Below, one piece after another: positions 1 to 42,269 of a stretch of 64,000 nucleotides of DNA. Origin of the DNA: Oscillospiraceae bacterium (lineage in GTDB: Bacteria; Bacillota_A; Clostridia; Oscillospirales; Ruminococcaceae); assembly GCA_017523995.1 (NCBI GenBank), contig JAFWUX010000034.1, positions 1 to 64,000 on the forward strand, given 5' to 3'. The notes under the pieces are model-generated. The model was not told the origin of the DNA and ran no database searches. It was given only the letters and a program-made list of their open reading frames with translations. Every line of letters begins with the position of its first letter. Position 1 is the first letter of the stretch. The position numbers and the translations under genes are program-made.

Positions 1-149
1 GCATATGTTTCAGTTGGTACATTTAATTGCTGCGGTTCAAACTGCGATCTGTATTCTCTGGGAAGAGGATAAGTTCCTCTCAATAGCTTCAGAATCTCAT
101 TGATATCGAACAGGTTGATGTTTTCTGGCATATGGTTCACTTCTTTCAT
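1..149 (-). CDS. Partial gene at left edge, unrecognised
   Basis: A reading frame on the minus strand starts at 149 (ATG) or at a second in-frame ATG at 131 and runs open off the left edge of the window. The start at 131 is preceded by a purine-rich GAAAG tract about 10 bases upstream, so it may be the real one. Only about 45 N-terminal residues are visible (MPENINLFDINEILKLL and on), and I do not recognise a family. It lies just before two likely immunity genes on the same strand, so it may belong to the same array. The composition is AT-rich like the rest of the first 9 kb. Confidence 0.45.
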   Translation of the reverse strand, partial: MKEVNHMPENINLFDINEILKLLRGTYPLPREYRSQFEPQQLNVPTETY

Positions 150-164
150 TGACAACCTTTTTTC

Positions 165-202
165 ACACTCAACGTTATTTTGCAAACACCCGAATCGCAA
201 CT
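165..202. repeat. Short repeat, copy a (pairs with 868-905)
   Basis: About 35 bases here are nearly identical to 868-905; the core is TTTTGCAAACACCCGAATCG in both. Read on the minus strand, both copies end the same short peptide tail (AIRVFAK, stop). They look like conserved remains of the 3' end of a duplicated gene, left between immunity genes. Confidence 0.7.
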
Positions 203-245
203 TTTGACAAGTCCGTTTTCTGCGATTTTACGCTGTTTTTCAGTA

Positions 246-345
246 CGACATTCAGCGGGGCAGGGCTGTTTTTATTCTTTCCTGATGATCGTACCGGGTG
301 CTGGTTCCTCAACACCTTGCGAAACATACTTTGAATCGCTGATCT
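246..345. repeat. About 100-bp repeat, copy 1 (pairs with 1658-1759)
   Basis: The stretch with GGGCTGTTTTTATTCTT, then CGTACCGG and GCGAAACATACTTTG, recurs at 1658-1759 with a modest number of changes. A shorter piece of the same unit, the GATTCAGCGATGCGGGGCT part, also occurs at 935-960. The repeat includes a short coding tail on the minus strand and the sequence just after its stop codon, so it marks duplicated gene ends rather than an insertion sequence. Confidence 0.7.
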
Positions 346-358
346 CAATAAACTGCAT
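272..358 (-). pseudogene. Orphan C-terminal gene fragment (28 codons)
   Basis: Minus-strand codons 358-272 read MQFIEISDSKYVSQG and continue to PAPGTIIRKE and a stop. The same tail (KYVSQGIE...PAAGT.IREE, stop) occurs at 1694-1759 but there is preceded by a stop codon. Two conserved tails without bodies suggest leftovers of a longer gene, possibly the end of a toxin or another array member. The ATG at 358 follows the stop of the 159-residue gene by 4 bases, so translation as a very small protein cannot be excluded. Confidence 0.45.
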
Positions 359-361
359 CTT

Positions 362-841
362 CTATTTATCATAATCCCAATGCTGCACCGGATAATCATT
401 GTTCAGCTTTTTGGTGTATTCGCAAATCTCTTCAGACCATTGGGTGGGTGTCAGCCCGCCTTTTACCAGCCGCAGATAAGTTTCAAACCATGCAAGACGG
501 AAATCATGGATTGCATGAAACTGATAGTGATTGTGTTCAATATACATCCATTTTCCGTTTTCGGCATGATCCTGCACATAACGCCATTTGAGCGCATCGG
601 TATGGCGGGAACGGAGTTCTAATTGCTGGGCAATATAGTTCGCGGCTTCTTTGAAAACCCATATTCGCAAATCGTCATAAGAGTGAAAGGAATGCTGAAT
701 CTTATCGGGACCTCTGTCACCTTCAGCGTATACATCCAATCCGCGTATATAAAATCCTCTGTAGCAAAACGCATTGGATAGGATATCAGCAGGAATATCC
801 TTCGGCAGATGCTGTTTGATCCATTCTTCGTATTGTTTCAT
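362..841 (-). CDS. Small unrecognised protein, possible immunity protein
   Basis: This 159-residue cytoplasmic protein has no signal peptide or membrane segment and is rich in Trp, Tyr and His. Visible features are an acidic N-terminal part with YRGFYIRGLDVYAEGDRG and a C-terminal half with WFETYLRLVKGGLTPTQW. The start is well placed: AAAGGAG lies 7 bases before the ATG at 841. I cannot assign a family with confidence. The context, a SUKH protein next door and repeated gene tails between them, suggests an immunity protein of a polymorphic toxin system (the Imm63 group was considered). That role is inferred from position only. Confidence 0.6.
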   Translation of the reverse strand: MKQYEEWIKQHLPKDIPADILSNAFCYRGFYIRGLDVYAEGDRGPDKIQHSFHSYDDLRIWVFKEAANYIAQQLELRSRHTDALKWRYVQDHAENGKWMYIEHNHYQFHAIHDFRLAWFETYLRLVKGGLTPTQWSEEICEYTKKLNNDYPVQHWDYDK

Positions 842-867
842 GATGACTCCTTTCTACAACCATACCC

Positions 868-905
868 CACACTCAACGCTATTTTGCAAACACCCGAATC
901 GCGGT
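868..905. repeat. Short repeat, copy b (pairs with 165-202)
   Basis: Second copy of the roughly 35-base unit at 165-202. It again sits directly upstream, on the minus strand, of a gene of the immunity array. Confidence 0.7.
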
Positions 906-924
906 TTTGGGATTGGAATGTCTG

Positions 925-960
925 CCCGCATCACTGGTGATTCAGCGATGCGGGGCTTTT
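925..960 (+). terminator. Terminator-like hairpin, array copy
   Basis: The arms CCCGCATC (925-932) and GATGCGGG (947-954) enclose a loop and are followed by GCTTTT. It points along the plus strand although all nearby genes are on the minus strand. It is repeated at 1657-1695, so it may simply be part of the repeated unit. Confidence 0.5.
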
Positions 961-975
961 GTTATTCATCTTTTG

Positions 976-1635
976 TTATTCATAATGAAAGTCAATCAAC
1001 CTTCTAAAGGTTACCGCATTTTCACAATCTGGATCAATGCCATCCTCGCTATCGGATAAAAAAGGTATCATCTGCCAGTCTTCCATACCACAGCCGCCGC
1101 ACATGATGAGATTCATTAGGAAAGTATAAAAGTCCTTTCCAAGAACCATACCATTACTGTCATCCCCATCGTGGCTCAGATAAACGACAGGCGGATTATC
1201 CGGATTTGAACCGATATCCAAAGAAATAATGTCACCGTTTCCTACATCAATGATACCGAGCTTGTGATGCCACACTTTATCATATTCGTCGTCTTCATTC
1301 GGGAAGCATTCTGAAACCCAGCCTCTCCGCATCATCTCGTTGCTTTCGGCTTCCTCCAAAGAGATCACATAGTGCGCAGCAAATAATTCTCTCAGTTCCT
1401 TCGGCAAAGAGTCACTGAATTCTTCTGGCAGAAACGCATTCATTTCAAAACACTGAGAATAATTCAGAAAGAAGTCACGAAGCTGCTTGGGCAGAGTCAT
1501 ACCAATACGATTTTCAACGGCTTTGATGCTCGCTTCATCTGCGCACGGTTCTGCTTTATAAGATGCTTCCTCATTTATTTTTTGATAGCTTTTTATAAGA
1601 TGACTGCATAATTGATCAAATCTCTGATAGTCCAT
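976..1635 (-). CDS. SUKH (SMI1/KNR4) family protein
   Basis: This 219-residue protein resembles the SMI1/KNR4 (SUKH) superfamily. The N-terminal part has the usual pattern of a helix with an AVENRIGMTLPKQLRDFF stretch (about residues 40-57), followed by acidic strands and GNGDIISLDIGSNPDNPPVVYL, the typical SUKH beta core with bound-ligand Gly-Asp. Bacterial SUKH proteins usually act as immunity partners of secreted nuclease or deaminase toxins in polymorphic toxin systems. No toxin gene is visible beside it, so this is an orphan immunity gene. A weak AAGGAAAAAG ribosome site precedes the start. Confidence 0.8.
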   Translation of the reverse strand: MDYQRFDQLCSHLIKSYQKINEEASYKAEPCADEASIKAVENRIGMTLPKQLRDFFLNYSQCFEMNAFLPEEFSDSLPKELRELFAAHYVISLEEAESNEMMRRGWVSECFPNEDDEYDKVWHHKLGIIDVGNGDIISLDIGSNPDNPPVVYLSHDGDDSNGMVLGKDFYTFLMNLIMCGGCGMEDWQMIPFLSDSEDGIDPDCENAVTFRRLIDFHYE

Positions 1636-1656
1636 ATTCTTTTTCCTTTACGCCTT

Positions 1657-1695
1657 CCCGCATCACTGGCGATTCAGCGATGCGGGGCTGTTTTT
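1657..1695 (+). terminator. Terminator-like hairpin, second array copy
   Basis: Arms CCCGCATC (1657-1664) and GATGCGGG (1679-1686) are followed by GCTGTTTTT. It is nearly identical to 925-960. Confidence 0.5.
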
Positions 1696-1759
1696 ATTCT
1701 TCCCTGATAACTGTACCGGCGGCGGGTACTTCGATGCCCTGCGAAACATACTTTGCATC
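1694..1759 (-). pseudogene. Second copy of the orphan gene tail
   Basis: Minus-strand codons read DAKYVSQGIEVPAAGT, then VIREE and a stop; the codon before them is TGA. It is homologous to the fragment at 272-358 and is therefore a remnant without a start. Confidence 0.5.
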
Positions 1760-2112
1760 TCATTTTCTCACTATCTCACAACAAGAAGGTCAAAGACTGA
1801 AACTAACAGATGCAGAATACGCGTTTATGGTACGTTACGGACCGCAAACCCAATACAAAATACAAATACCAGGATTGCAATCTATTTTCAGTCTTCATTG
1901 CCCGTCAAGGCTGACAATGTGACGACCGTCAGGAAGGAACAGTGACATCGCTCGATGCAATCGCCCGCGTGTGAGTGCCGCTGCCCGCGTAGGACATTTA
2001 TTTGTCTTCCAACTGAATTAGCCGTGAATTTACATCTCATTTTCTCACTATCTCAGGAAATAAGCAATAGAGGTTTATTGCATCCGTATTGAAACCATCC
2101 GATCAATCGGAA

Positions 2113-5100
2113 TTATAATCCTGTTTCTATAGTCAGATTGCTTCCTTCTCTTGCCTTTTTAACACGGATTTGCTGAGGAATATTCTCAATTAATTCTTCT
2201 CTGTGGCTTATTATTCCCACCAGTTTATTTTTTCCAGACAGATTGATAAGAATGTCCATTGCGCTCTCAATCGACTTGCGGTCAAGTGTTCCAAAACCCT
2301 CATCAATAAACAACGCATCCATCTGGACACCACCCAGATTCATTGAAACTGTATCAGACAATCCAAGTGCAAGGCTCAGAGATGCCTTAAAGCTCTCTCC
2401 TCCGGATAGATTTCCGACTGGTCTTCTGTGGCCGGTTAAATTATCCTGCACCTCCAGATCAAGAAATGTATTGCTTTTCTTTCCAAGCGAGTCTTCCTGT
2501 CGATATAATTCGTACTGACCGTCACTCATAGGCAAGAGCCTTCTGTTTGCTGCAGCAATTATACCATCAAAGCCAGCCGCCTGAATATACTGCTCCAGCG
2601 TGATCTTTCCGTTACCGGTGGTACCTTTAACTAGATTGTATAGTCTGGTGCATATACCATTTTCTTTTCTTGACTTTTCCAGTTCAGATTTCTGGGCGGT
2701 AATCTTTTCAAGCTTATCTTCATTTCCTACGAGCCTGTTTTTAATAGAATTGTTTATATCTCGCTTTTTCTCCACCTCAGTTTTCTGTGAATCGCACTTT
2801 TCTTTTAGCTGATCAATATCAATAACCTTAAGGTCTTTAGCATCTTTTTCAGCATCTTCAAGCTGCTTTTTATTCGTAGTAACTTCCTGCTTATATTTAC
2901 TGATCTCTTCATCAACTTCTGCTATTAAATCCTCTGACAGGACAAAACCGAGCATATCATTAACGGATTCAAATTTATTCTTTTTTACTTCTGCTTCAAG
3001 CTTCTGTTTTCTTTTCTCAGCCTCTTCTTTCTCTTTCGACAGAGAATCCTCCAGTGTTTTTAAAGCAGATTTCTGCGATGCTAATGTTTCGTCTGCTTCT
3101 TTGCTGGCTTTATCTGCACGTTCAATTTGATCCTGAATATTCTTTTTCTTCGTCTGTGCTTTATCTAACTCGGACTTTGCGGTTTTCCAGTTTTCAAAGC
3201 TCAGCTCTGCAAGAGTTTTCAGTACCTCTTCTTTTTTGGCTTTTTCCATTTTTGTATTCTGTTTCTTTTCGGCAAATTTTTCCTTATCCCGTGACAAGAT
3301 TTCCATCTTTTGGCCTTGTGCATTTTCAAGCTCCTTTTCCGATTTTGTAAGAGCGTCACATTCTTTTTTCAAAGCCTGTTGCTGAGTGGTGTTTTCTTCG
3401 ATTTTATCTTTTACGATGCACTGTGCCTTTTTTACTTCTTTTATTAGATCATCTAATTCGTTACCTGTGTCCTTAATATCAAGCGCTTTATCATTCAGGC
3501 ATTCAATAATATCTGCCATCAAACGGCTCTCAATTCCTTCCAATGAAGTTTTGGCAGTTTCGGCTTCTGTATTTGCATTCGACTTTTTAGACTGAAGAGC
3601 ATCTTCCTTTTCCTTTAGTTTTTTAAAATCCTCCTCGGTGATTGCTTCGGCAGGAATCTTTGCGAGTTCCGGATGATGCACAGATCCACAAACAGGACAT
3701 TGCTGTCCTTCCTCTAAACCTTCAGCTAATATACCTGCACGGCAATTATCCAGGATCCTTTCAGCTTCAATCCTTTCTTTACTTGCTTTTTCGTATGCTT
3801 CAAAAGCATTCATATAAGCTTTTTGCTTTTTTTCAAGTTCTTTCTTTTTAGTTGCCCTATCAGGTATTCCGGTATCTATGATCGTATTAATTCTGTCTAA
3901 AAGCTTCTGATAATTATCATGAAGCGCTTTGATTTCAATCAGCTTTTCTGGCGTACCCTTGAGAGCCTTAATAGTATCCTTAAGTTTATTGATCTCATCT
4001 TTGAGAGCCTTTTCTCTTTCCTCTAATGCTTTCTCTTCAGCTGTGAATCCCAGAGACTCTTTTTTCAGTTCCTCGATTCCACTTACCAGTTCATCTCGTT
4101 CCTGATACTTCTTCTCTTCTGCCTCGATCTTATCTATTAGCTTTTGAAGCATATCAACTTTGGGCTGCTCCTGTTTGGCTTTTTCAAATACCTCCTTTGC
4201 TTCAACAGATTTATCTGATGCTGTTTTAACATCTTTTTTCTTCTCTTCTATCTGCTTTTCAATCTCTTTTACGGACGTATCTTTTTCTTTCCATGACAAG
4301 TAAACCGGATTAACTTCTCTGGTTGCCAGTTTCTGTATGGTTAGGAGAGCTTCTTTTTCATCAATTTCTTTCTTCTTATCTTTCAGTTTCTTTTCTGATT
4401 CCTTAAGATCTTCAAATTTTTTAATAAAGCCATTATTGGTTTCAGCTTTTGCAAGGGTTTCTTTACTCTTCTCGAATTCCTTTTCAATAGCCTTCAATTC
4501 GGAATCTGCTACTTTTGACTTATTTTTATCCGAGCTGATTACTGACTTAACCATATCTATTATCTCTTCAAGATTCCATGCGCTTCCGGATCTCTTTGCA
4601 CGATCCTGAAGATTAGACAAAGCCTCAGCCAGTTCATCCTCCTTATCTATTGAGACATCGGAAAAATACTGTACAATGCTGTTCTCTGTTTCGATTTTCT
4701 GCCTATAGCTGGCATCCATCCGTTCTTTCAAACGATATTCGATATTGTTATATCCGCTTGTCTGAAAGATGGTACGCAGGATTTTCGTTCTCTCGTCTGT
4801 TTTAGCGTTCAGCAAATTCCAGAATTCGCCCTGAGCTATCATAGCAATCTGCATGAACTGCTTTGAATCAATATGCAGAAGGTTACGAATTATACCCGCT
4901 TCTTTTTCTGTACCATCAACATTTCTTAATCCTTCTACCGTCGTCCCATCAGGGTAGTAAAAAATAACCTTTTCCTTTTCTTCTGTTAATTTCCCATTTC
5001 TGTTTATGCGCTCAAAGGATGGCTCTCTGTAAATGTGATAATCTTTTCCCTGATGTGAAAAGTAAAAATCCACAAAACACTTTTCAGATTCTTTTGCATA

Positions 5101-5310
5101 TTCACTTCTCAGATTTTTGGTGTCTCTGAACTTTCCACTAGTTTCTCCGTACAGCGCAAAACAGATAGCGTCAAAGATCGTAGTCTTTCCCGCTCCGGTA
5201 TCACCAGATATTAAAAACAGCCCTTTATCCTCAAACTGAGAAAACTCTATTGCCGGCATCTTTCCGGCATATGGTCCGAATGCACTCATTATCAGTTTAA
5301 TCGGTTTCAT
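2113..5310 (-). CDS. sbcC: Exonuclease SbcC (ATPase subunit)
   Basis: This is the SMC-like ATPase of the SbcCD (Mre11-Rad50 type) nuclease, which opens hairpins and processes DNA ends in the cytoplasm. The protein is 1065 residues, normal for the family. Walker A GDTGAGKT lies at about residues 36-43. Two long coiled coils flank the zinc hook CPVC at 538-541, and the signature LSGGES (about 968), the Walker B FIDEG (about 1001-1005) and the D-loop GTLD follow. The start at 5310 (MKPIKL) is preferred over an upstream in-frame ATG because AGGTG precedes it and homologues begin there. It overlaps the end of sbcD by 14 bases. The AT-rich composition and the WYL regulator upstream are unlike a typical housekeeping locus. 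Confidence 0.93.
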   Translation of the reverse strand: MKPIKLIMSAFGPYAGKMPAIEFSQFEDKGLFLISGDTGAGKTTIFDAICFALYGETSGKFRDTKNLRSEYAKESEKCFVDFYFSHQGKDYHIYREPSFERINRNGKLTEEKEKVIFYYPDGTTVEGLRNVDGTEKEAGIIRNLLHIDSKQFMQIAMIAQGEFWNLLNAKTDERTKILRTIFQTSGYNNIEYRLKERMDASYRQKIETENSIVQYFSDVSIDKEDELAEALSNLQDRAKRSGSAWNLEEIIDMVKSVISSDKNKSKVADSELKAIEKEFEKSKETLAKAETNNGFIKKFEDLKESEKKLKDKKKEIDEKEALLTIQKLATREVNPVYLSWKEKDTSVKEIEKQIEEKKKDVKTASDKSVEAKEVFEKAKQEQPKVDMLQKLIDKIEAEEKKYQERDELVSGIEELKKESLGFTAEEKALEEREKALKDEINKLKDTIKALKGTPEKLIEIKALHDNYQKLLDRINTIIDTGIPDRATKKKELEKKQKAYMNAFEAYEKASKERIEAERILDNCRAGILAEGLEEGQQCPVCGSVHHPELAKIPAEAITEEDFKKLKEKEDALQSKKSNANTEAETAKTSLEGIESRLMADIIECLNDKALDIKDTGNELDDLIKEVKKAQCIVKDKIEENTTQQQALKKECDALTKSEKELENAQGQKMEILSRDKEKFAEKKQNTKMEKAKKEEVLKTLAELSFENWKTAKSELDKAQTKKKNIQDQIERADKASKEADETLASQKSALKTLEDSLSKEKEEAEKRKQKLEAEVKKNKFESVNDMLGFVLSEDLIAEVDEEISKYKQEVTTNKKQLEDAEKDAKDLKVIDIDQLKEKCDSQKTEVEKKRDINNSIKNRLVGNEDKLEKITAQKSELEKSRKENGICTRLYNLVKGTTGNGKITLEQYIQAAGFDGIIAAANRRLLPMSDGQYELYRQEDSLGKKSNTFLDLEVQDNLTGHRRPVGNLSGGESFKASLSLALGLSDTVSMNLGGVQMDALFIDEGFGTLDRKSIESAMDILINLSGKNKLVGIISHREELIENIPQQIRVKKAREGSNLTIETGL

Positions 5311-6454
5311 GTAATACACCTGCCTCTCTTGCAACTTCTCTCATAACTGCCATTTCCTCATCGCTTATCTCGCAGCTATACATCTGCCTGTAAAAATCAC
5401 TTATCAGATCTGCAAATGATCTGTTCTCAGCGATCTTTGATATATCTACCTGCTCCACTTCTCTTGTATGTGAATTATCGTAGTCAATCTTTACTGTATT
5501 GGGATACACCTGCTGAAAAACACCCATCGCATCGCTTATAAATTCTTCGTCAGTTAGTGTTGCATAGATAAAATCCTCCGGAGCAGTCACATTGGTCTTA
5601 TCAAGAAGATCCTGTAATCTCCCCCTAAGATGCCTCATATCCCTCTTTGGTTTGAGTGGTACTAATTCTATCTCCACCTTGCCTTTACCGCTCACCGTAA
5701 TCAAAGATACAGATTTTTCATTGTTCACCTCGCTAAGCGAATACTTAAGCGGTGAACCGGAATATCTGACCTCTTTGCGTCCGACCTGTTGAGGAGAATG
5801 AATATGTCCAAGAGCTACATAGTCAAATAAATCAAAACAGTCATAGCCTATCTTTTCAACAGTTCCTACACTCTGAGTTCCAAGACACTCAGAGCCGGAA
5901 AGAGCAGGATCTTCACTCTTTCCCATAACAAACTGATGAGCTACAATAACATTACACCTTGCCGGATCAATATCAGCACTGTCTATTATCGCCCTTACTG
6001 CATCATCATAGGTTTCTATCTTTGCTTCTGGAAGATAATTTCTGACCTGTGATGCTTTAACAAATGGAAGAAGATAGATGTCTATTTCCTCTTTCTCTTT
6101 TTTAAATGTATTCTTATAAAGCTTTCCTTCATATTTTGAATAGATGAAAATGTGGTTTGTTTCAAATAGCTTGCTGCCATAGTTCAGTCTCTCGTCAGAA
6201 TCGTGATTACCGCTAATCATGTATGTATGGACGTGCTTTTTAGCCAGGCTACTAAGAAAATTGTCCAGCATTCTTGTTGCGGCTTCGCTGGGGATGGCTT
6301 TATCATATATATCACCAGCAATCAAAACCGCATCCACAGACTGATCATCTACTATTTTAAGTAATTGGTTCAGCATATACTCCTGATCATCCTTCAAATC
6401 GAAATCTCCAAGTGATTTTCCCAGATGCAGATCTCCAATGTGCATCATCTTCAT
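5297..6454 (-). CDS. sbcD: Exonuclease SbcD (nuclease subunit)
   Basis: This 385-residue calcineurin-like phosphoesterase is the metal-dependent nuclease partner of SbcC. The metal-binding motifs are DLH (residues 8-10), GDIYD (47-51), GNHD (82-85), a later AHQF and GHIH. The start has a full AGGAGG site 9 bases upstream. It follows the WYL regulator by 23 bases and overlaps sbcC, so the three genes read as one transcript. The C-terminal part (after about residue 260) is the usual capping domain. Confidence 0.93.
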   Translation of the reverse strand: MKMMHIGDLHLGKSLGDFDLKDDQEYMLNQLLKIVDDQSVDAVLIAGDIYDKAIPSEAATRMLDNFLSSLAKKHVHTYMISGNHDSDERLNYGSKLFETNHIFIYSKYEGKLYKNTFKKEKEEIDIYLLPFVKASQVRNYLPEAKIETYDDAVRAIIDSADIDPARCNVIVAHQFVMGKSEDPALSGSECLGTQSVGTVEKIGYDCFDLFDYVALGHIHSPQQVGRKEVRYSGSPLKYSLSEVNNEKSVSLITVSGKGKVEIELVPLKPKRDMRHLRGRLQDLLDKTNVTAPEDFIYATLTDEEFISDAMGVFQQVYPNTVKIDYDNSHTREVEQVDISKIAENRSFADLISDFYRQMYSCEISDEEMAVMREVAREAGVLHETD

Positions 6455-6477
6455 ACATTAATACCTCCTGTGATGAT

Positions 6478-7443
6478 TTATAGGGCTTGCCTTGCCCATT
6501 CTTGACATTGAACTAATACTTTTTGAGGGGATATAATTCGCATCTTTTCTGGGAACTGAAAATACCAGCCCCAAAATGTCCTACTGATTTGTACTCTCAC
6601 TTTGGCTGAAAAGAGATTACTCTTCTCTAGTCGCTTGATTTTTGTTTCAAAACCGAACTGGTCATATACAACATCAATCAGTGAATCATCAAACTCAAGT
6701 TCAACTTCTGTTTCTTCTCCGCCATACATTTTGATAGCTTTTGAAGTATAGGTTGCTAGCTCGTTCTCTTTTACAAGTGCTTTTTTGCAAATATCGGTCT
6801 CTAGATGTTGCACATCTTCCATTCTATCTATTCGGAAATTCCGAAAATCTTTTATTGCTTGAATATAACAACGAAGATAATAATAATTATTTTCATATAT
6901 CAGAGCAATCGGGTCAACTATATATCGTTCCTTGTTATGTTTATATACCTTATTCCTATTTTCATCATGTTTGAAATATACAAAAGAGATTTGTTTTTGT
7001 CTACTGAAGGATTCTTCAATTACAGCAATAGAATCAAAAACACTAGTATTAGTCTGTTTTCTGATATTGAATCGTATTTTATTTATCAGAAGTGATTCTG
7101 CGCAGTGTGGACCGCCAAGACTGGCAATCTTTGATGTTAGGGCAATAGTCATATCTTCCGGAATAACAGATGATGCTTGAATTGCATCAATAATGATTTT
7201 TAATTCGGCCAATGAAAAACTATGTTGTTCCATGTAAAAAGCATTACTATGTCCAACTCTAATACATTTAACAGGATAGTTCATGTCTTGCAACTGGGAC
7301 ATATCTCTTGCTAGTGTTCTTCGATCACATGAAATTCCATATGCAGAAAGCTTTTCTAGAAGTGCATTGGTTGCAATGGGATGTTCAGCATCAGATTCCT
7401 GACTCAGAATTTCAGTTAGGTGCAACATCTTATTCTTTTGCAT
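6478..7443 (-). CDS. WYL-domain transcriptional regulator
   Basis: This 321-residue protein has an N-terminal winged-helix region (about 1-75, ...RRTLARDMSQLQDM...) and a WYL-type ligand-binding domain (about 150-230, PIALIYENNYYYLRCY and FRIDRMEDV), then a C-terminal WCX-like extension. WYL regulators respond to nucleic acid or nucleotide signals; known relatives control DNA-damage genes (PafBC) or phage-defence operons (BrxR, CapW). Here it heads an operon with sbcD and sbcC, so it probably controls them and itself. A GGAAAGGAG site precedes the ATG. The promoter with an adjacent inverted repeat is at 7478-7536. Confidence 0.88.
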   Translation of the reverse strand: MQKNKMLHLTEILSQESDAEHPIATNALLEKLSAYGISCDRRTLARDMSQLQDMNYPVKCIRVGHSNAFYMEQHSFSLAELKIIIDAIQASSVIPEDMTIALTSKIASLGGPHCAESLLINKIRFNIRKQTNTSVFDSIAVIEESFSRQKQISFVYFKHDENRNKVYKHNKERYIVDPIALIYENNYYYLRCYIQAIKDFRNFRIDRMEDVQHLETDICKKALVKENELATYTSKAIKMYGGEETEVELEFDDSLIDVVYDQFGFETKIKRLEKSNLFSAKVRVQISRTFWGWYFQFPEKMRIISPQKVLVQCQEWARQAL

Positions 7444-7477
7444 TATGCTTCTACTCCTTTCCCATTGTATACATTTA

Positions 7478-7506
7478 GAATAGCACTTTCTGGCTTACAT
7501 GTCAAT
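7478..7506 (-). promoter_or_regulatory. Promoter of WYL-sbcD-sbcC operon
   Basis: On the minus strand TTGACA is followed by 17 bases and TATTCT, a near-consensus sigma-A promoter. It lies about 35 bases before the start codon of the WYL gene. Confidence 0.8.
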
Positions 7507-7508
7507 CC

Positions 7509-7536
7509 GAAACTGTCACAAAAATGCGACAGTTTC
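7509..7536. promoter_or_regulatory. Perfect 9-bp inverted repeat, likely operator
   Basis: GAAACTGTC (7509-7517) and GACAGTTTC (7528-7536) are exact inverted copies separated by 10 bases. The dyad sits only 3 bases upstream of the -35 box of the WYL promoter. It has no T-run, so it is unlikely to be a terminator. WYL regulators such as BrxR and CapW bind inverted repeats in their own promoters, so this is probably the autoregulatory site. Confidence 0.65.
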
Positions 7537-7620
7537 TTTATGCGTGACAAATAGCTTACCATACAAATTCCTCATGTACCGATTTATACAACAGCACATT
7601 TATCTAATCAGGACCATCAA

Positions 7621-9180
7621 TTATTTTTCAGCATTCAACTGTGAAAGTCGTGCCATTAACCGCGAAACAGTTATGGGTTCGTCATAACGCCAGTATATAA
7701 CATGAACTCCATTCCTTTCACATAAGATTCTCTTCTTTCGATCTCTCTCCTGCGTATTATGTAAACCCTCATCACCGCCAAAAAACGGAACAGGCTCATA
7801 ATGCTGTAATCCCTGATACTCAATTCCAACCCTGAGTGAGGGAATGAACACATCAAGAGATTGTAATCCAAGCCAATTTGCATGAAATTGAAATATAGCA
7901 TCTGGATACTGTTTCAAAATCATTGAGTACAGATCTCCTTCATTTGTCCATTTGCTGATCTTTTTCCCGCTAGTGATAATACCCTGAACAGCTTCCGCTT
8001 CATAGTTTTGCATTACACTTTTATATACCTTTTTTGATGCATGATACGCTTCTTCATATAGGCGTATATCGTAACCATAAAACTGATTAGTACGATTTCT
8101 AAAGTCTGTTTCAGTATTAATCTTAAGCAAAGCCCCAATATAGAGCAAATGCTTCTCAATATATTCAGCGCAGATACTATTGTCTTTTGGATGCATAAGA
8201 AGTAAATCAAGAAACTCGTTGTTTACTTCAGTAGAGGCACCCTTTTCAAATTGGCGAAATATTTTACCCATCGTTTTTTTGAATATTGTGTAATCATCTG
8301 TACCACTAAAAATATTACGAAGCGTATTGATAACAGCAAAAACCAATACCTGCTTTCCGGGTGGCATATAAAATTGAGTGCTATATTTCTCACCCGTTTT
8401 CCATGGTAAATTCATTCCGCCACATATTTCAGTAATTGGAATACTCTGTATAGCATATGTATTGTTGTATTTTGCGAACAGGAATTGAACATCTTTCCTT
8501 GCAACGTTTGTCCCAAATAAAGGAATGCGTATGTTTACAGTCTCATCATCAAGCCGAATATTTGGAATTCTCTCATACGCCATCCCGTTCTCGATGAAGA
8601 GTTCAAGAAATCTGCCGCATTTTGAATTTCCGCCGGTAAGATACAAATATCTATTCGTATTATGCGCGTTTTGTCTTATAAAACGATTATATTCTTTATT
8701 GAACCATGCACCAAGATCAGCTTTCGTCCGTTCAATATAGTCAGATTGCTGCGCTTTGTCTCTATAGGACATTTTCAACTTGCCACATACAAGGTAGTAG
8801 CCTTTATCGAGCTCAATCTGAGCTGAAAGAGGCGGCTGTTCATAGATATTAGATACATAATCTGTAAATTCAAATAGTATTCCTCTTGAATCAAGCACAT
8901 AATAAAGTTTGGGTCCTCGAAGAAAAAGAAAGAGAAGATCATGATACTTTTTACAAGGATGAAAATCCACGTGCCGAAACACTACTCGCTCAGTTGTACC
9001 ATCATAAAGAAGCAGATCGTCCGTTGTTTCAGATTTCCGATAAAACCCTTTAGCAGTGTTGATGGTATATGCCCATTTTATGTAAGGCTTTACATTGGGA
9101 TGTGAAGCAGGCAACAATGGCGACTGGTGTGTATCAAGGATATCTTGTAAATGATCCCACCGATAGGCTACGATATCCAT
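7621..9180 (-). CDS. Protein with C-terminal Vsr/PD-(D/E)XK-like nuclease domain
   Basis: This 519-residue protein has a long N-terminal region that I do not recognise, and a C-terminal domain (about 420-519) with a nuclease look: LDVFIP with Asp443, GIEYQG with Glu454 and Gln456, then PVPFFGG and RDRKKRILCERNGV. This Asp...Glu-x-Gln layout, with the trailing Cys and Arg region, resembles Vsr-like members of the PD-(D/E)XK fold. The start at 9180 has a strong AAAGGAGG 5 bases upstream; an earlier in-frame start at 9225 has none. It follows the DUF2075 helicase gene by 45 bases, so the two are probably co-transcribed and may work together. It is more AT-rich than the helicase gene. Confidence 0.7.
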   Translation of the reverse strand: MDIVAYRWDHLQDILDTHQSPLLPASHPNVKPYIKWAYTINTAKGFYRKSETTDDLLLYDGTTERVVFRHVDFHPCKKYHDLLFLFLRGPKLYYVLDSRGILFEFTDYVSNIYEQPPLSAQIELDKGYYLVCGKLKMSYRDKAQQSDYIERTKADLGAWFNKEYNRFIRQNAHNTNRYLYLTGGNSKCGRFLELFIENGMAYERIPNIRLDDETVNIRIPLFGTNVARKDVQFLFAKYNNTYAIQSIPITEICGGMNLPWKTGEKYSTQFYMPPGKQVLVFAVINTLRNIFSGTDDYTIFKKTMGKIFRQFEKGASTEVNNEFLDLLLMHPKDNSICAEYIEKHLLYIGALLKINTETDFRNRTNQFYGYDIRLYEEAYHASKKVYKSVMQNYEAEAVQGIITSGKKISKWTNEGDLYSMILKQYPDAIFQFHANWLGLQSLDVFIPSLRVGIEYQGLQHYEPVPFFGGDEGLHNTQERDRKKRILCERNGVHVIYWRYDEPITVSRLMARLSQLNAEK

Positions 9181-9225
9181 GATGTCCTCCTTTGCAACGT
9201 ATAATAAAAATAGCCTAAAAATCAT

Positions 9226-11361
9226 TCATATTTCTTCAATTCCAAGACTTTTCAAATACTGATAAGTCCCGTCATAGTATTCCGGCAGACGGGTGCTGTC
9301 CTCCCAGAAGCCGCTCGGATTCTTATTCGGATTTCCGGCGGGCACGCAGATCACCATGCCGGCTCTGGCACGGGTGAGCAGCACACGGTAGGCATTCAGC
9401 ATATACTTGATGCGCTCCTGCCTGCTCTCGCTGCTGCCGGTCAGCTCGTTCCATTTCGTGTTTCCGTTAAATGTGTAAAAGCGCCATTTTCCGTGATCGC
9501 AGCGCATATCTGCATCCCAGAGCAGGCAGGTGTAGTCCAGTTCCAGGACCTGCACCTGAATCTCGGTGGCAGCATCTTCCAGATAATTCGACGATCTGGT
9601 GTCGGATTTGTCCTCCAGGAACCAGTGAACCGCATTCTCATCGCCGGACGGCAGAATATGTACCGCCAGCGGCTTGAACCTCGCTGATTCTTTTGTCACA
9701 AGCACGCCGGTGCGCTCCGTGCCGCGCACCTTTTCATGCAACCATTTCCGCGCCGTTGCCATATCCCGTGTCAGCATGATCGGATACTTGTCCTTGATTT
9801 CCTGATACAGCGCCGCTGCCGAATCATCAAAGGACAGCAGCGCATGAACGAATGCCGATAGCTTCTCCGCACGATACGACCGCAGCGAGACTGCCAGATG
9901 AAGGCTTTCGGAATAGGTGACATTGGGATTGTCTTTCAGCAACTCATTCACCTTGCCCTCGACGTATTCCGCATCGGTCAGCTTCGGCGAGATATACACG
10001 TTCCAGTGCGGGAACATCTCATTCAGAGCTTTGATCCATTCCGAGATACCGGCTTCGCCGGTATTGATCTCCTGACCGCCGCCGACCAGACAGATGATCG
10101 TCGCCCAGTCCTCGCGCTGATCGAGCGACCAGATCAGAAATGCCGCTTCTGACATCGGAAAATTCGGCACTTTCAGCTTGTTGCCGTATGTGCCGCCGCG
10201 TTTCAGATAATCAGCCAGACGCTTGTGCGTCCATGAGCGCTGCGCCTCGTCGAAGATCGCAACGTGCTCGACTTCACCGAAACCGGCGTGTTCCATTTTC
10301 ACAGCCTTTTCCGGATCTATTTCAAGGATGCCGTTTTCGACCGGATTTTTGATCTTTGCAAGCATATTGTCACGGTAACGGTGAATCATCTGAATGGATT
10401 TTCCGACCTCGCGGCGGGAATCGGTCTTGTTCTTTTTGATATTCTGCTCGCGGCAGCGTTCATAGTTATCCCTTGCCAGTGCTTCTGTCAGCACCGCGAC
10501 AAGCGGGCCATTGCCGGAAAGATACACCGCGCCTTCGTCCTCAACCGGCTCATCATGCCCCTGATAGGTCTGCTTGATCGCAACATCCAGACCGGCCAGC
10601 GTTTTTCCCGCGCCAGGAACGCCCGTCACAAAGCAAATGCTTTTCTTTTGCTGTGCCTTGCTCTCATGGATGACATCCAGAATATAGGCGATCGTCCGGT
10701 CAGTATATACCTGATCGGCTTCGTGACGCGTGATATTCTCGACGGAGTGGCTCTCATACAGCGATCTGGCAGCCTCGATGATCGTCGGTGTCGGAGCATA
10801 TGGGCTGATGATCCAGCGGCTGTCGATCGGGGGCTCATTTGGATACTTTTGCAGCACAGCGGATATCACGTCAAACAGCCACACTTCACCTGTTACCAGC
10901 GGATTCACGACTTTATCATCATACACAGACATCTGCACGACCGACGATGCGTTCCGATATTTCGTCGCAATCAGAACCGGCACAATGATATGCTCCTGAC
11001 TGAATTTATGGAAGTTTTTGAGGTCCAGCGCATAGTCAAGCACCTGATCGACATCCGCTTCCAGAATCTGCGATTCGCCCACCTTGAATTCGAGGCAGAA
11101 GATGATGCCGCGCAGAAGCAGTACAACGTCAATGCGCTTGCCGAGCCGCGGAATGTCATACTCAAAGATGATCCGACCATCGTGATCCAGCCGGCGCACG
11201 AGCTCCCGCATGATCGATATTTCGCCTTTCCATGCTTCGCGCGTCGTTGTGTGTGCATCGCCGTGGTAGTGATCGCACAGAAGTCCGAGGATTGCGTTCT
11301 CATCTTCGCACAGGAATTCCGTGAAAGTGCTATGATATAAGCAGCGAGGGCTGTCATTCAT
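9226..11361 (-). CDS. DUF2075 helicase with N-terminal nuclease motif
   Basis: This 711-residue protein combines two parts. The N-terminal 240 residues contain Glu48, Asp78 and the strand FCLEFKVG with Glu91-x-Lys93, the spacing expected of a PD-(D/E)XK endonuclease. The rest is a DUF2075 (Schlafen group 3-like) superfamily 1 helicase-type NTPase with Walker A GVPGAGKT (247-254), Walker B IFDEAQR (Asp371-Glu372), and a late motif NAYRVLLTRARAGMVI. The upstream TTG at 11397 is a poorer start than the ATG at 11361, which follows AAAGGCGG. Such proteins are often found in defence islands but I know no characterised system with exactly this partner. Its GC content is near that of the host, unlike the gene after it. 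Confidence 0.8.
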   Translation of the reverse strand: MNDSPRCLYHSTFTEFLCEDENAILGLLCDHYHGDAHTTTREAWKGEISIMRELVRRLDHDGRIIFEYDIPRLGKRIDVVLLLRGIIFCLEFKVGESQILEADVDQVLDYALDLKNFHKFSQEHIIVPVLIATKYRNASSVVQMSVYDDKVVNPLVTGEVWLFDVISAVLQKYPNEPPIDSRWIISPYAPTPTIIEAARSLYESHSVENITRHEADQVYTDRTIAYILDVIHESKAQQKKSICFVTGVPGAGKTLAGLDVAIKQTYQGHDEPVEDEGAVYLSGNGPLVAVLTEALARDNYERCREQNIKKNKTDSRREVGKSIQMIHRYRDNMLAKIKNPVENGILEIDPEKAVKMEHAGFGEVEHVAIFDEAQRSWTHKRLADYLKRGGTYGNKLKVPNFPMSEAAFLIWSLDQREDWATIICLVGGGQEINTGEAGISEWIKALNEMFPHWNVYISPKLTDAEYVEGKVNELLKDNPNVTYSESLHLAVSLRSYRAEKLSAFVHALLSFDDSAAALYQEIKDKYPIMLTRDMATARKWLHEKVRGTERTGVLVTKESARFKPLAVHILPSGDENAVHWFLEDKSDTRSSNYLEDAATEIQVQVLELDYTCLLWDADMRCDHGKWRFYTFNGNTKWNELTGSSESRQERIKYMLNAYRVLLTRARAGMVICVPAGNPNKNPSGFWEDSTRLPEYYDGTYQYLKSLGIEEI

Positions 11362-11417
11362 TGAGAACACCGCCTTTATCAGTTTGTAATGCAACAAAGT
11401 TTTTTATCATTTTATAT

Positions 11418-11446
11418 CATTATAACATAGTTTACATTCAAAATCA
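11418..11446 (-). promoter_or_regulatory. Promoter of the DUF2075 operon
   Basis: Minus strand TTGATT, 17 bases, TATAAT. The transcript would start about 50 bases before the ATG at 11361. The stretch 11447-11633 holds no gene I can support. Confidence 0.7.
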
Positions 11447-11633
11447 AGAGATATTCTATGCAAAACGAAGAGGATGTCGTGTTCTAGCATGAAGGACAAA
11501 TACTATTCTTGCACCCCCTCCGCCTCATTCCCTCATTATTTTTTCACAAGAGGGGTACCCTTGAAAAAGTACGCAAATAAGGTTGGTCACGCCAAAAAAG
11601 AGACCGAACCCTCAACTTTTCGCCGATTTTCAG

Positions 11634-11721: not shown

Positions 11722-11797
<76 letters not shown>

Positions 11798-40874: not shown

Positions 40875-40902
40875 GATATGGTGTCTGACAGACACCATAT
40901 CA
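40874..40902. promoter_or_regulatory. 29-bp perfect palindrome on the transcription start
   Basis: TGATATGGTGTCTG, one central base, CAGACACCATATCA. Two exact 14-base arms directly follow the -10 box, covering the start point. With no loop and no T-run it is a protein operator, not a terminator. A strong promoter fully covered by such a site implies tight repression. Confidence 0.8.
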
Positions 40903-40943
40903 TTGAACACGCCGTTCAAAACGGCAGAAAGGAATTTGAAGAC

Positions 40944-42269
40944 ATGAAAAAACACACTTCAATCTCAAAAACAATCACCGCGCTCTCTCTTTCAGCTGTT
41001 TCGTGTGCATCGCTGATGCTTGCACCGATGACAGCCAACACTGCACTCTTGCAGAACTATTGCATCACAGCCAGTGCAAGTTCAGACAAATTTACTGAGG
41101 ATACGCTCATCCTTGCCAACGGACAGATGGCCGGTTCTTCCGGTTACGGCTCCGAAGCCTGGTATTCCAAGAACAAGAGATTCAAGCTGGTATTTACTAT
41201 GGACGGTGATCTTGTTCTGTACGATCAGTCAAACAGCAACCGTGTTGTGTGGCACTCTGATACCGGTATCGGAAACAGCTATTCGACACGTTCATTCCGG
41301 ATGACAATGCAGACAGACGGCAACTTCGTCATTGCCTATCAGAATCGCTACAGCCGAACTGCAACGCCGATGTGGCAGGCACATACTGTTGCCGACGGCG
41401 GAACTGCGTGCCAGCTGCGCCTTTCCAATGACGGTGAGCTCTATGTATATCACAGCCAGAGAAAGCAGTGCCTCTGGAGCAGCAGAAGTGCAATCGAGTG
41501 CACCGCAAAAGCCAATACATACCTGCGTTCGAGCCAGTGCATCTCCTCCCCCAACCGCCTGTTCCGTGCGATTATGCAGCCTGACGGCAATTTCGTTGTC
41601 TATGATAACAGAACCGGCAAGGATAAGGCAATCTTCTACACCGGAACACATGGTCACAGCGGTGCGTTCTTTGCGCTGCAGCAGGACGGCAATCTGGTGG
41701 TATACTCCGGTTCCACACCGCTGTATAATACCGGAACATGCAGCAAACCTTATGCAGACTATAAGCTCTCACTCGGCGATGACGGCATCCTGACACTTGT
41801 CCGGAAATCGGATAACCGCAAGATCTGGACATCCAACGGCAGCGCCAAGGTTGAGCATATGCTGACATGGGCAATCAATATTGCAAATGACAATTCCCAC
41901 GGTTACAACTGGAACTACCCGAACAGACTCGGACCGGACTATGACTGCTCGTCCCTTGTCTGCGCTGCGGCAAAGCAGGCAGGCTTCAACGTCCGTGCCG
42001 ATCTGACAACCTATACCATGAGAACGAACTTTGTTGCTGCGGGATTTACATGGATTCCGTGGTCGCAGATTGGCAGCACCGCAAATCTCAAGCGCGGTGA
42101 TATTCTCCTGAATGAAGCTGCGCATACAGAAATCTACCTCGGCAACAATCAGAATGTCGGTGCACACTGGGATTATGACGGCAAACGCGGTGACAGCTCC
42201 GGCAAAGAGATCAGTGTCGGCAACTACTGGTTCGATAACTGGAACGGCGTTCTCCGTTACAACGGCTGA
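40944..42269 (+). CDS. Secreted bulb-lectin protein with NlpC/P60-like domain
   Basis: The 441-residue protein starts with a signal peptide (about 1-45; hydrophobic ITALSLSAVSCASLMLA). Two bulb-type (B_lectin, mannose-binding) domains follow, with QTDGNFVIAY, QPDGNFVVYDN and QQDGNLVVYSG, the Q-x-D-x-N-x-V-x-Y ligand pattern. The C-terminal 130 residues resemble an NlpC/P60 or CHAP peptidase, with Cys335 in YDCSSLVCAAAKQAGF and His394 in AAHTEIYLG. It should bind mannose-like glycans and cut peptidoglycan peptides. The start is the Met before a basic signal sequence, with AAAGGA upstream. A strong, operator-covered promoter drives it. Confidence 0.85.
   Translation: MKKHTSISKTITALSLSAVSCASLMLAPMTANTALLQNYCITASASSDKFTEDTLILANGQMAGSSGYGSEAWYSKNKRFKLVFTMDGDLVLYDQSNSNRVVWHSDTGIGNSYSTRSFRMTMQTDGNFVIAYQNRYSRTATPMWQAHTVADGGTACQLRLSNDGELYVYHSQRKQCLWSSRSAIECTAKANTYLRSSQCISSPNRLFRAIMQPDGNFVVYDNRTGKDKAIFYTGTHGHSGAFFALQQDGNLVVYSGSTPLYNTGTCSKPYADYKLSLGDDGILTLVRKSDNRKIWTSNGSAKVEHMLTWAINIANDNSHGYNWNYPNRLGPDYDCSSLVCAAAKQAGFNVRADLTTYTMRTNFVAAGFTWIPWSQIGSTANLKRGDILLNEAAHTEIYLGNNQNVGAHWDYDGKRGDSSGKEISVGNYWFDNWNGVLRYNG

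Follow-up and report, generated by a model that had tools for sequence, protein, structure and literature searches.

A PDC-S41 helicase gene with a putative nuclease domain neighbouring a rare nuclease-domain protein and a putative accessory WYL-SbcCD block in an Oscillospiraceae genome

The window analysed here, a 64,000-nucleotide (nt) stretch of an Oscillospiraceae bacterium (contig JAFWUX010000034.1), carries five minus-strand genes that a first-pass annotation had taken for a two-part accessory island: a helicase with an N-terminal nuclease motif, a 519-amino-acid (aa) protein with a Vsr-like C-terminal domain, and a WYL-domain regulator followed by SbcD and SbcC. All five genes and both nuclease signatures are present (Table 1). 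Our analysis suggests that the genes are probably a single-gene defence candidate, PDC-S41, standing by a tRNA gene, and an unrelated block of low guanine-plus-cytosine (GC) content that holds a rare nuclease-domain protein and the WYL-SbcD-SbcC genes. The arrangement looks more like genes that happen to adjoin than a single new system. The tempting call of a new system is thereby corrected: the helicase falls into a candidate family already on record, whose genes occur singly in varied contexts, and the locus sets an ordinary member of that family next to a nuclease family that is rare and as yet without a partner, and to a putative accessory SbcCD. The enzymatic activities of the locus and its defence function are those that we infer from sequence.

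The proposed pairing of the helicase with the 519-aa protein failed the co-occurrence check as far as it was run. Across 24 helicase neighbourhoods, a NUDIX gene lay downstream in 11 and an HNH_4 gene in 5, and in 2 a Vsr gene and the start of the helicase gene overlapped; the 519-aa family or its domain was found in none. This count includes the gene remnants L280-L282 (L282 has no open reading frame (ORF) matching the helicase query; L and G numbers label the loci and genomes compared) as well as L278 and L283, which are contigs of one genome, and leaves out an N-terminal remnant (L279), a copy at a contig edge (L177), the distant plasmid copy L274 and the weak or partial matches L052, L053, L078, L079, L182, L183, L187 and L188. 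From the nuclease side, the helicase was found in the flanks of 0/44 loci encoding the nuclease domain, many of these flanks being cut by contig ends and one locus being full-length: L001 alone has a match to the N-terminal part as well (E <= 1e-4), and the alignment to L030 starts at residue 222. When 11 of these 44 genomes were searched whole, none held the helicase (0/11), and the same query found matches in other genome groups. The helicase matched 8/79 genomes in the genus of G416, six of the matches being full-length, and 7/237 in the family of G174; the 519-aa query matched 10/79 and 8/237, only from residue 366 and residue 374 on, respectively. The sequence clusters also differ in size (87 sequences in the 96% helicase cluster vs 10 in the 88% nuclease cluster), which is a hint against pairing rather than a test of it. 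No description of this gene combination was found in a literature search.

The helicase gene moves alone, independently of its neighbours in the window. In the genus of G681, 10/30 genomes contain a helicase match, at 96% identity in G736, 95% in G751, 95-98% over partial copies in G756, 75-76% in G737 and G681 and 42-47% in G734, the four others being fragments. Whole-window blastn against ten neighbourhoods from this genus gave matches in nine, confined to the helicase gene with no more than 30 nt upstream of it; in the two copies that are complete (95-96% identity) the alignment spans 9226 to 11361 and 9226 to 11391. The other four proteins of the window had no tblastn match in the same ten neighbourhoods. 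Past the helicase stop codon the copies differ: in L278, L280, L281 and L283 the next gene is NUDIX, with a 4-nt overlap, and other DNA follows in L275, L276 and L282. Short remnants of the helicase gene persist in four genomes of one genus (L279-L282), with L281 keeping two gene ends only.

The settings of the helicase relatives vary, and defence genes are among their neighbours. A tRNA-Arg(cct) gene lies ~3 kilobases (kb) from the helicase in L275, L276 and L284, with a phage-integrase-family gene (PF00589) between them; in L275 (6051-17925) the tRNA-Arg, integrase-family and helicase genes face a Wadjet JetA-JetB-JetC set. Scans of selected neighbour genes identified PDC-M33A and a cytosine methyltransferase in L284, PDC-S06 in L277, PDC-S51 in L225, and McrC with an AAA ATPase near the distant helicase copy on an Exiguobacterium plasmid (L274). 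In L224 and L227, helicase relatives stand at the end of MutL/MORC-type restriction-modification loci, beside the Mza genes MzaB-E and a cytosine methyltransferase, with a Vsr gene also present in L227. Vsr-superfamily genes have been described in loci of this type (PMC2292703).

Base composition divides the five genes at the same point. The helicase gene has a GC content of 0.533 and a third-position GC of 0.649, within the third-position range of twelve sampled ORFs to its right (0.60-0.77); the six genes to its left, the 519-aa gene included, have a GC content of 0.35-0.43 and third-position values of 0.26-0.44 (0.33 for the 519-aa gene, 0.361 for sbcC). The change in composition falls at the helicase stop codon, which is also where similarity to the relatives ceases. 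The low-GC stretch (window 1-9225), which includes a SUKH-1 gene, reaches the left window edge, so that its left boundary lies beyond the window. Most simply, the helicase would be host-like in composition and would stand next to a separate low-GC block. Against so plain an account, helicase copies of 75-77% identity from the genus of G416 have a low GC content of their own (0.38-0.45), so the window copy would either have spent long in a higher-GC host or have come from one.

The helicase matches the PADLOC profile PDC-S41 (PDLC05014) over nearly its whole length (805.8 bits, E 6.6e-243; residues 18-723 of the 723-aa frame against profile positions 3-653 of 657), PDC standing for phage defence candidate. 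It also matches Pfam PF09848 ('Schlafen group 3, DNA/RNA helicase domain', formerly DUF2075; 210.5 bits); at E <= 1 Pfam returned this group-3 helicase domain only, and no Schlafen RNase domain. A protein search gave at least 8000 matches, all at E <= 0.001. The N-terminal E..D..ExK motif noted in the first-pass annotation was borne out: E67, D78, E91, K93 and Q106 are invariant in 17/17 sequences, and E47 is found in 15/17 (the set comprises the window copy and 16 relatives, ranging from two at 95-96% identity to a plasmid copy at 27% identity). The motor domain, with Walker A (K253) and Walker B (D371-E372) motifs in the window copy, is that of the PDC-S41 family. The E67-D78-E91xK93-Q106 pattern is that of a PD-(D/E)XK nuclease. 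The AlphaFold model of the helicase is weak overall (predicted local distance difference test score, pLDDT, 60.6), most 10-residue blocks in residues 11-180 scoring 70-96 and two scoring 54-56. The first-listed Foldseek match was McrC (6hz4), with a probability of 0.98 but an E-value of 0.013, and another Foldseek listing gave motor-domain matches only; a nuclease fold at the N-terminus is suggested by the model. In the proposed mechanism, the helicase would bind foreign nucleic acid and translocate on it by means of its ATPase motor, and an N-terminal domain of PD-(D/E)XK type in the same protein would do the cutting; because of this putative domain, it may need no separate nuclease. A NUDIX hydrolase gene is its commonest companion among the relatives examined, and the window copy differs from those relatives in having the 519-aa gene instead. 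Comparison with PADLOC upheld the supposed link to defence, showed the helicase to be no new class but the existing candidate PDC-S41, and left the 519-aa protein unmatched. The association of the helicase family with defence is further supported by the listing of PF09848 among abortive-infection (Abi) families in an E. coli defence-island study (PMC10121019).

The 519-aa protein belongs to a small nuclease-domain family, with 22 full-length relatives in a protein search, that lies outside Pfam, PADLOC and NCBIfam; zero Pfam families, including Vsr (PF03852), matched the 519-aa or the 534-aa version at E <= 1. The residues D443, E454 and Q456 singled out by the earlier reading correspond to D458, E469 and Q471 in the 534-aa frame, and these, together with E429 and H475, are invariant in 23/23 aligned sequences. 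The predicted fold of the C-terminal domain resembles Vsr (1cw0, 1vsr) and the EDxHD homing endonuclease I-Bth0305I (3r3p), at 17% and 14% identity, respectively, and places the conserved acidic residues accordingly within a nuclease-like domain, so that structure prediction supports the Vsr-like assignment. The protein differs from both by ~390 further residues. Acting alone, it may cut DNA in a site- or structure-specific manner, the N-terminal part serving recognition and the Vsr-like domain cleavage. As a separate observation, in L228 (9216-11428, genome G001) the one full-length relative with a readable neighbourhood lies 23 nt after a 251-aa gene that has no Pfam match.

Several observations weigh against a single-gene defence candidate beside an unrelated block. 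The helicase and the 519-aa gene lie on one strand, 45 nt apart, with a strong ribosome-binding-site-like sequence (AAAGGAGG) preceding the ATG at 9180 and no terminator-like site found at their junction; given the shared strand, the short gap and the lack of such a site, the two genes could be cotranscribed. Among the full-length relatives of the 519-aa protein just one had a readable neighbourhood, and power is low on the nuclease side. The literature search found neither a defence phenotype for PDC-S41 nor a paper naming it. Finally, nuclease genes do accompany helicase relatives. The Vsr genes lie at 8378-8824 in L227 and 8521-8958 in L284, and an HNH_4 gene follows the helicase directly in four genomes (gaps of 5, 14, 6 and 7 nt) and one gene further in a fifth; because of these overlaps and of the HNH genes within 14 nt in four loci, a helicase beside a nuclease gene is a recurring theme. 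In the HNH cases (L057, L219, L220, L221 and L222), the helicase is followed by a ~392-aa HNH_4-type protein, identified by a domain scan in L057 and by 69-84% alignment to the L057 protein in the others, and L220-L222 add a NUDIX-methyltransferase fusion gene. This arrangement looks like a recurring cassette. The NUDIX gene of L219 lies 3.6 kb upstream of the helicase and is outside the 11 NUDIX loci.

Such company, with the NUDIX genes and the uninterrupted 45-nt gap in the window, would be expected of a modular two-gene defence system in which the PDC-S41 helicase senses or remodels the target and a partner in a variable downstream slot (HNH_4, Vsr-fold or NUDIX) acts on it. A system with interchangeable partners of this kind is possible but unlikely: the helicase has a nuclease motif of its own, the HNH cases all come from the genus of G416, the next ORF is >150 nt from the helicase in 5 of the 21 loci measured, and the composition break falls exactly between the helicase and the 519-aa gene, for which no second example as a partner was found. 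That PDC-S41 helicases are the constant element of a modular defence family whose NUDIX, HNH_4 and Vsr-fold partners are interchangeable, the 519-aa protein with its putative recognition domain being a new effector family for the downstream slot, we judge to be rather unlikely. A homing-type nature of the 519-aa protein, as a selfish endonuclease inserted behind the helicase and with no part in defence, is decidedly improbable, since its N-terminal ~390 aa, without a Pfam match yet with many residues invariant among relatives of ~40% identity, suggest a specific function, and the number of full-length relatives gives no sign of the fast spread that a homing gene would be expected to show. The five genes are adjacent, on the same strand and bounded by a tRNA gene whose 3' end faces them, as would suit a single integrated island of defence genes transferred together to the tRNA-Ala site. 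We give this almost no credence: the tRNA-Ala(cgc) gene and its flanks have no repeat >14 bases elsewhere in the window, Pfam scans of seven window ORFs revealed no integrase, the ten neighbourhoods from the genus of G681 gave no tblastn match to the other four proteins, and base composition differs between the parts. Under the preferred reading, that of a single-gene candidate beside an unrelated block, PDC-S41 with and without NUDIX would be a better target for defence assays than the helicase/519-aa pair, and the NUDIX, HNH and Vsr company of these helicases in relatives is the more interesting lead.

The remaining three genes have the domains of SbcCD (Mre11-Rad50 type) and of the WYL regulators of defence loci. 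SbcD exceeds the cut-off of its profile (TIGR00619, 150.7 vs 77.65 bits), and SbcC profiles match over nearly the full length at scores below their cut-offs (391 vs 920 bits and 266 vs 478.5 bits); the two genes are adjacent, as in SbcCD, and sbcC follows sbcD in 30/30 relatives too. The inverted repeat upstream of the WYL gene (7509-7536) has perfect 9-bp arms, equalled or bettered in 8/1000 dinucleotide shuffles of the 177-bp spacer, and is unlikely to have arisen by chance. Of the WYL-controlled SbcCD with a dyad operator that had been proposed, the domains, the adjacency and the dyad therefore stand, but linkage to WYL did not recur. WYL relatives are found in 94/128 genomes, and the 30 best (28-42% identity, perhaps not orthologues) have no sbcD or sbcC in their flanks, to ~1.5 kb; SbcD relatives are found in 41/79 genomes, and in 0/30 SbcD loci does a WYL gene lie upstream of sbcD, over flanks of the same length, so that the window differs from its SbcCD relatives in this respect. 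The dyad pattern was not found in these loci of relatives. As linkage and dyad are unseen in relatives, WYL control is something we infer from adjacency. An operon of WYL, SbcD and SbcC is plausible, and it may encode an accessory, autoregulated form of SbcCD, the nuclease of DNA ends and hairpins.

The gene calls are summarized in Table 1. The most likely start codons are ATG 11361 for the helicase and ATG 9180 for the 519-aa protein. The putative operon structure agrees in part with the two transcription units of the first-pass annotation, which are plausible: promoter-like sites precede the helicase and WYL genes, although such sites occur in the region at chance level (26 found vs a shuffle mean of 23.1). 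A terminator-like site was identified at 11716-11688, past the end of the tRNA gene. The immunity genes described as relics at the left end fared less well, since the SUKH-1 gene is an intact ORF scoring above the Pfam cut-off; the other supposed immunity gene (362-841) had no Pfam match at E <= 1.

Table 1. Features of the locus and its flanks, in window coordinates.
Feature	Position	Strand	Details
SUKH-1 (SMI1/KNR4) protein	976..1635	minus	219 aa; PF09346, 49.5 bits; intact ORF
SbcC-type ATPase subunit	2113..5334	minus	1073 aa from TTG 5334; overlaps sbcD; PF13476 (AAA_23), PF13558 (SbcC Walker B)
SbcD-type nuclease subunit	5297..6454	minus	385 aa; PF00149, PF12320, TIGR00619
WYL-domain regulator	6478..7443	minus	321 aa; PF13280, 44.2 bits; PADLOC WYL, 79 bits
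Promoter-like TTGACA-17-TATTCT (7505-7477) and 9-bp inverted repeat directly upstream	7477..7536	minus	precedes WYL gene
519-aa protein, C-terminal Vsr/EDxHD-fold domain (predicted)	7621..9180	minus	534 aa if ATG 9225; N-terminal ~390 aa uncharacterised
Nuclease-helicase (putative), PADLOC PDC-S41 / PF09848	9226..11361	minus	711 aa; alternative TTG start 11397 (723-aa frame)
Promoter-like TTGATT-17-TATAAT	11419..11447	minus	TG before second hexamer; upstream of helicase
tRNA-Ala(cgc)	11722..11797	minus	3' end facing helicase

Elsewhere in the window, at 40878-42269, a mannose-binding lectin domain and an endolysin-like domain are joined in one protein.

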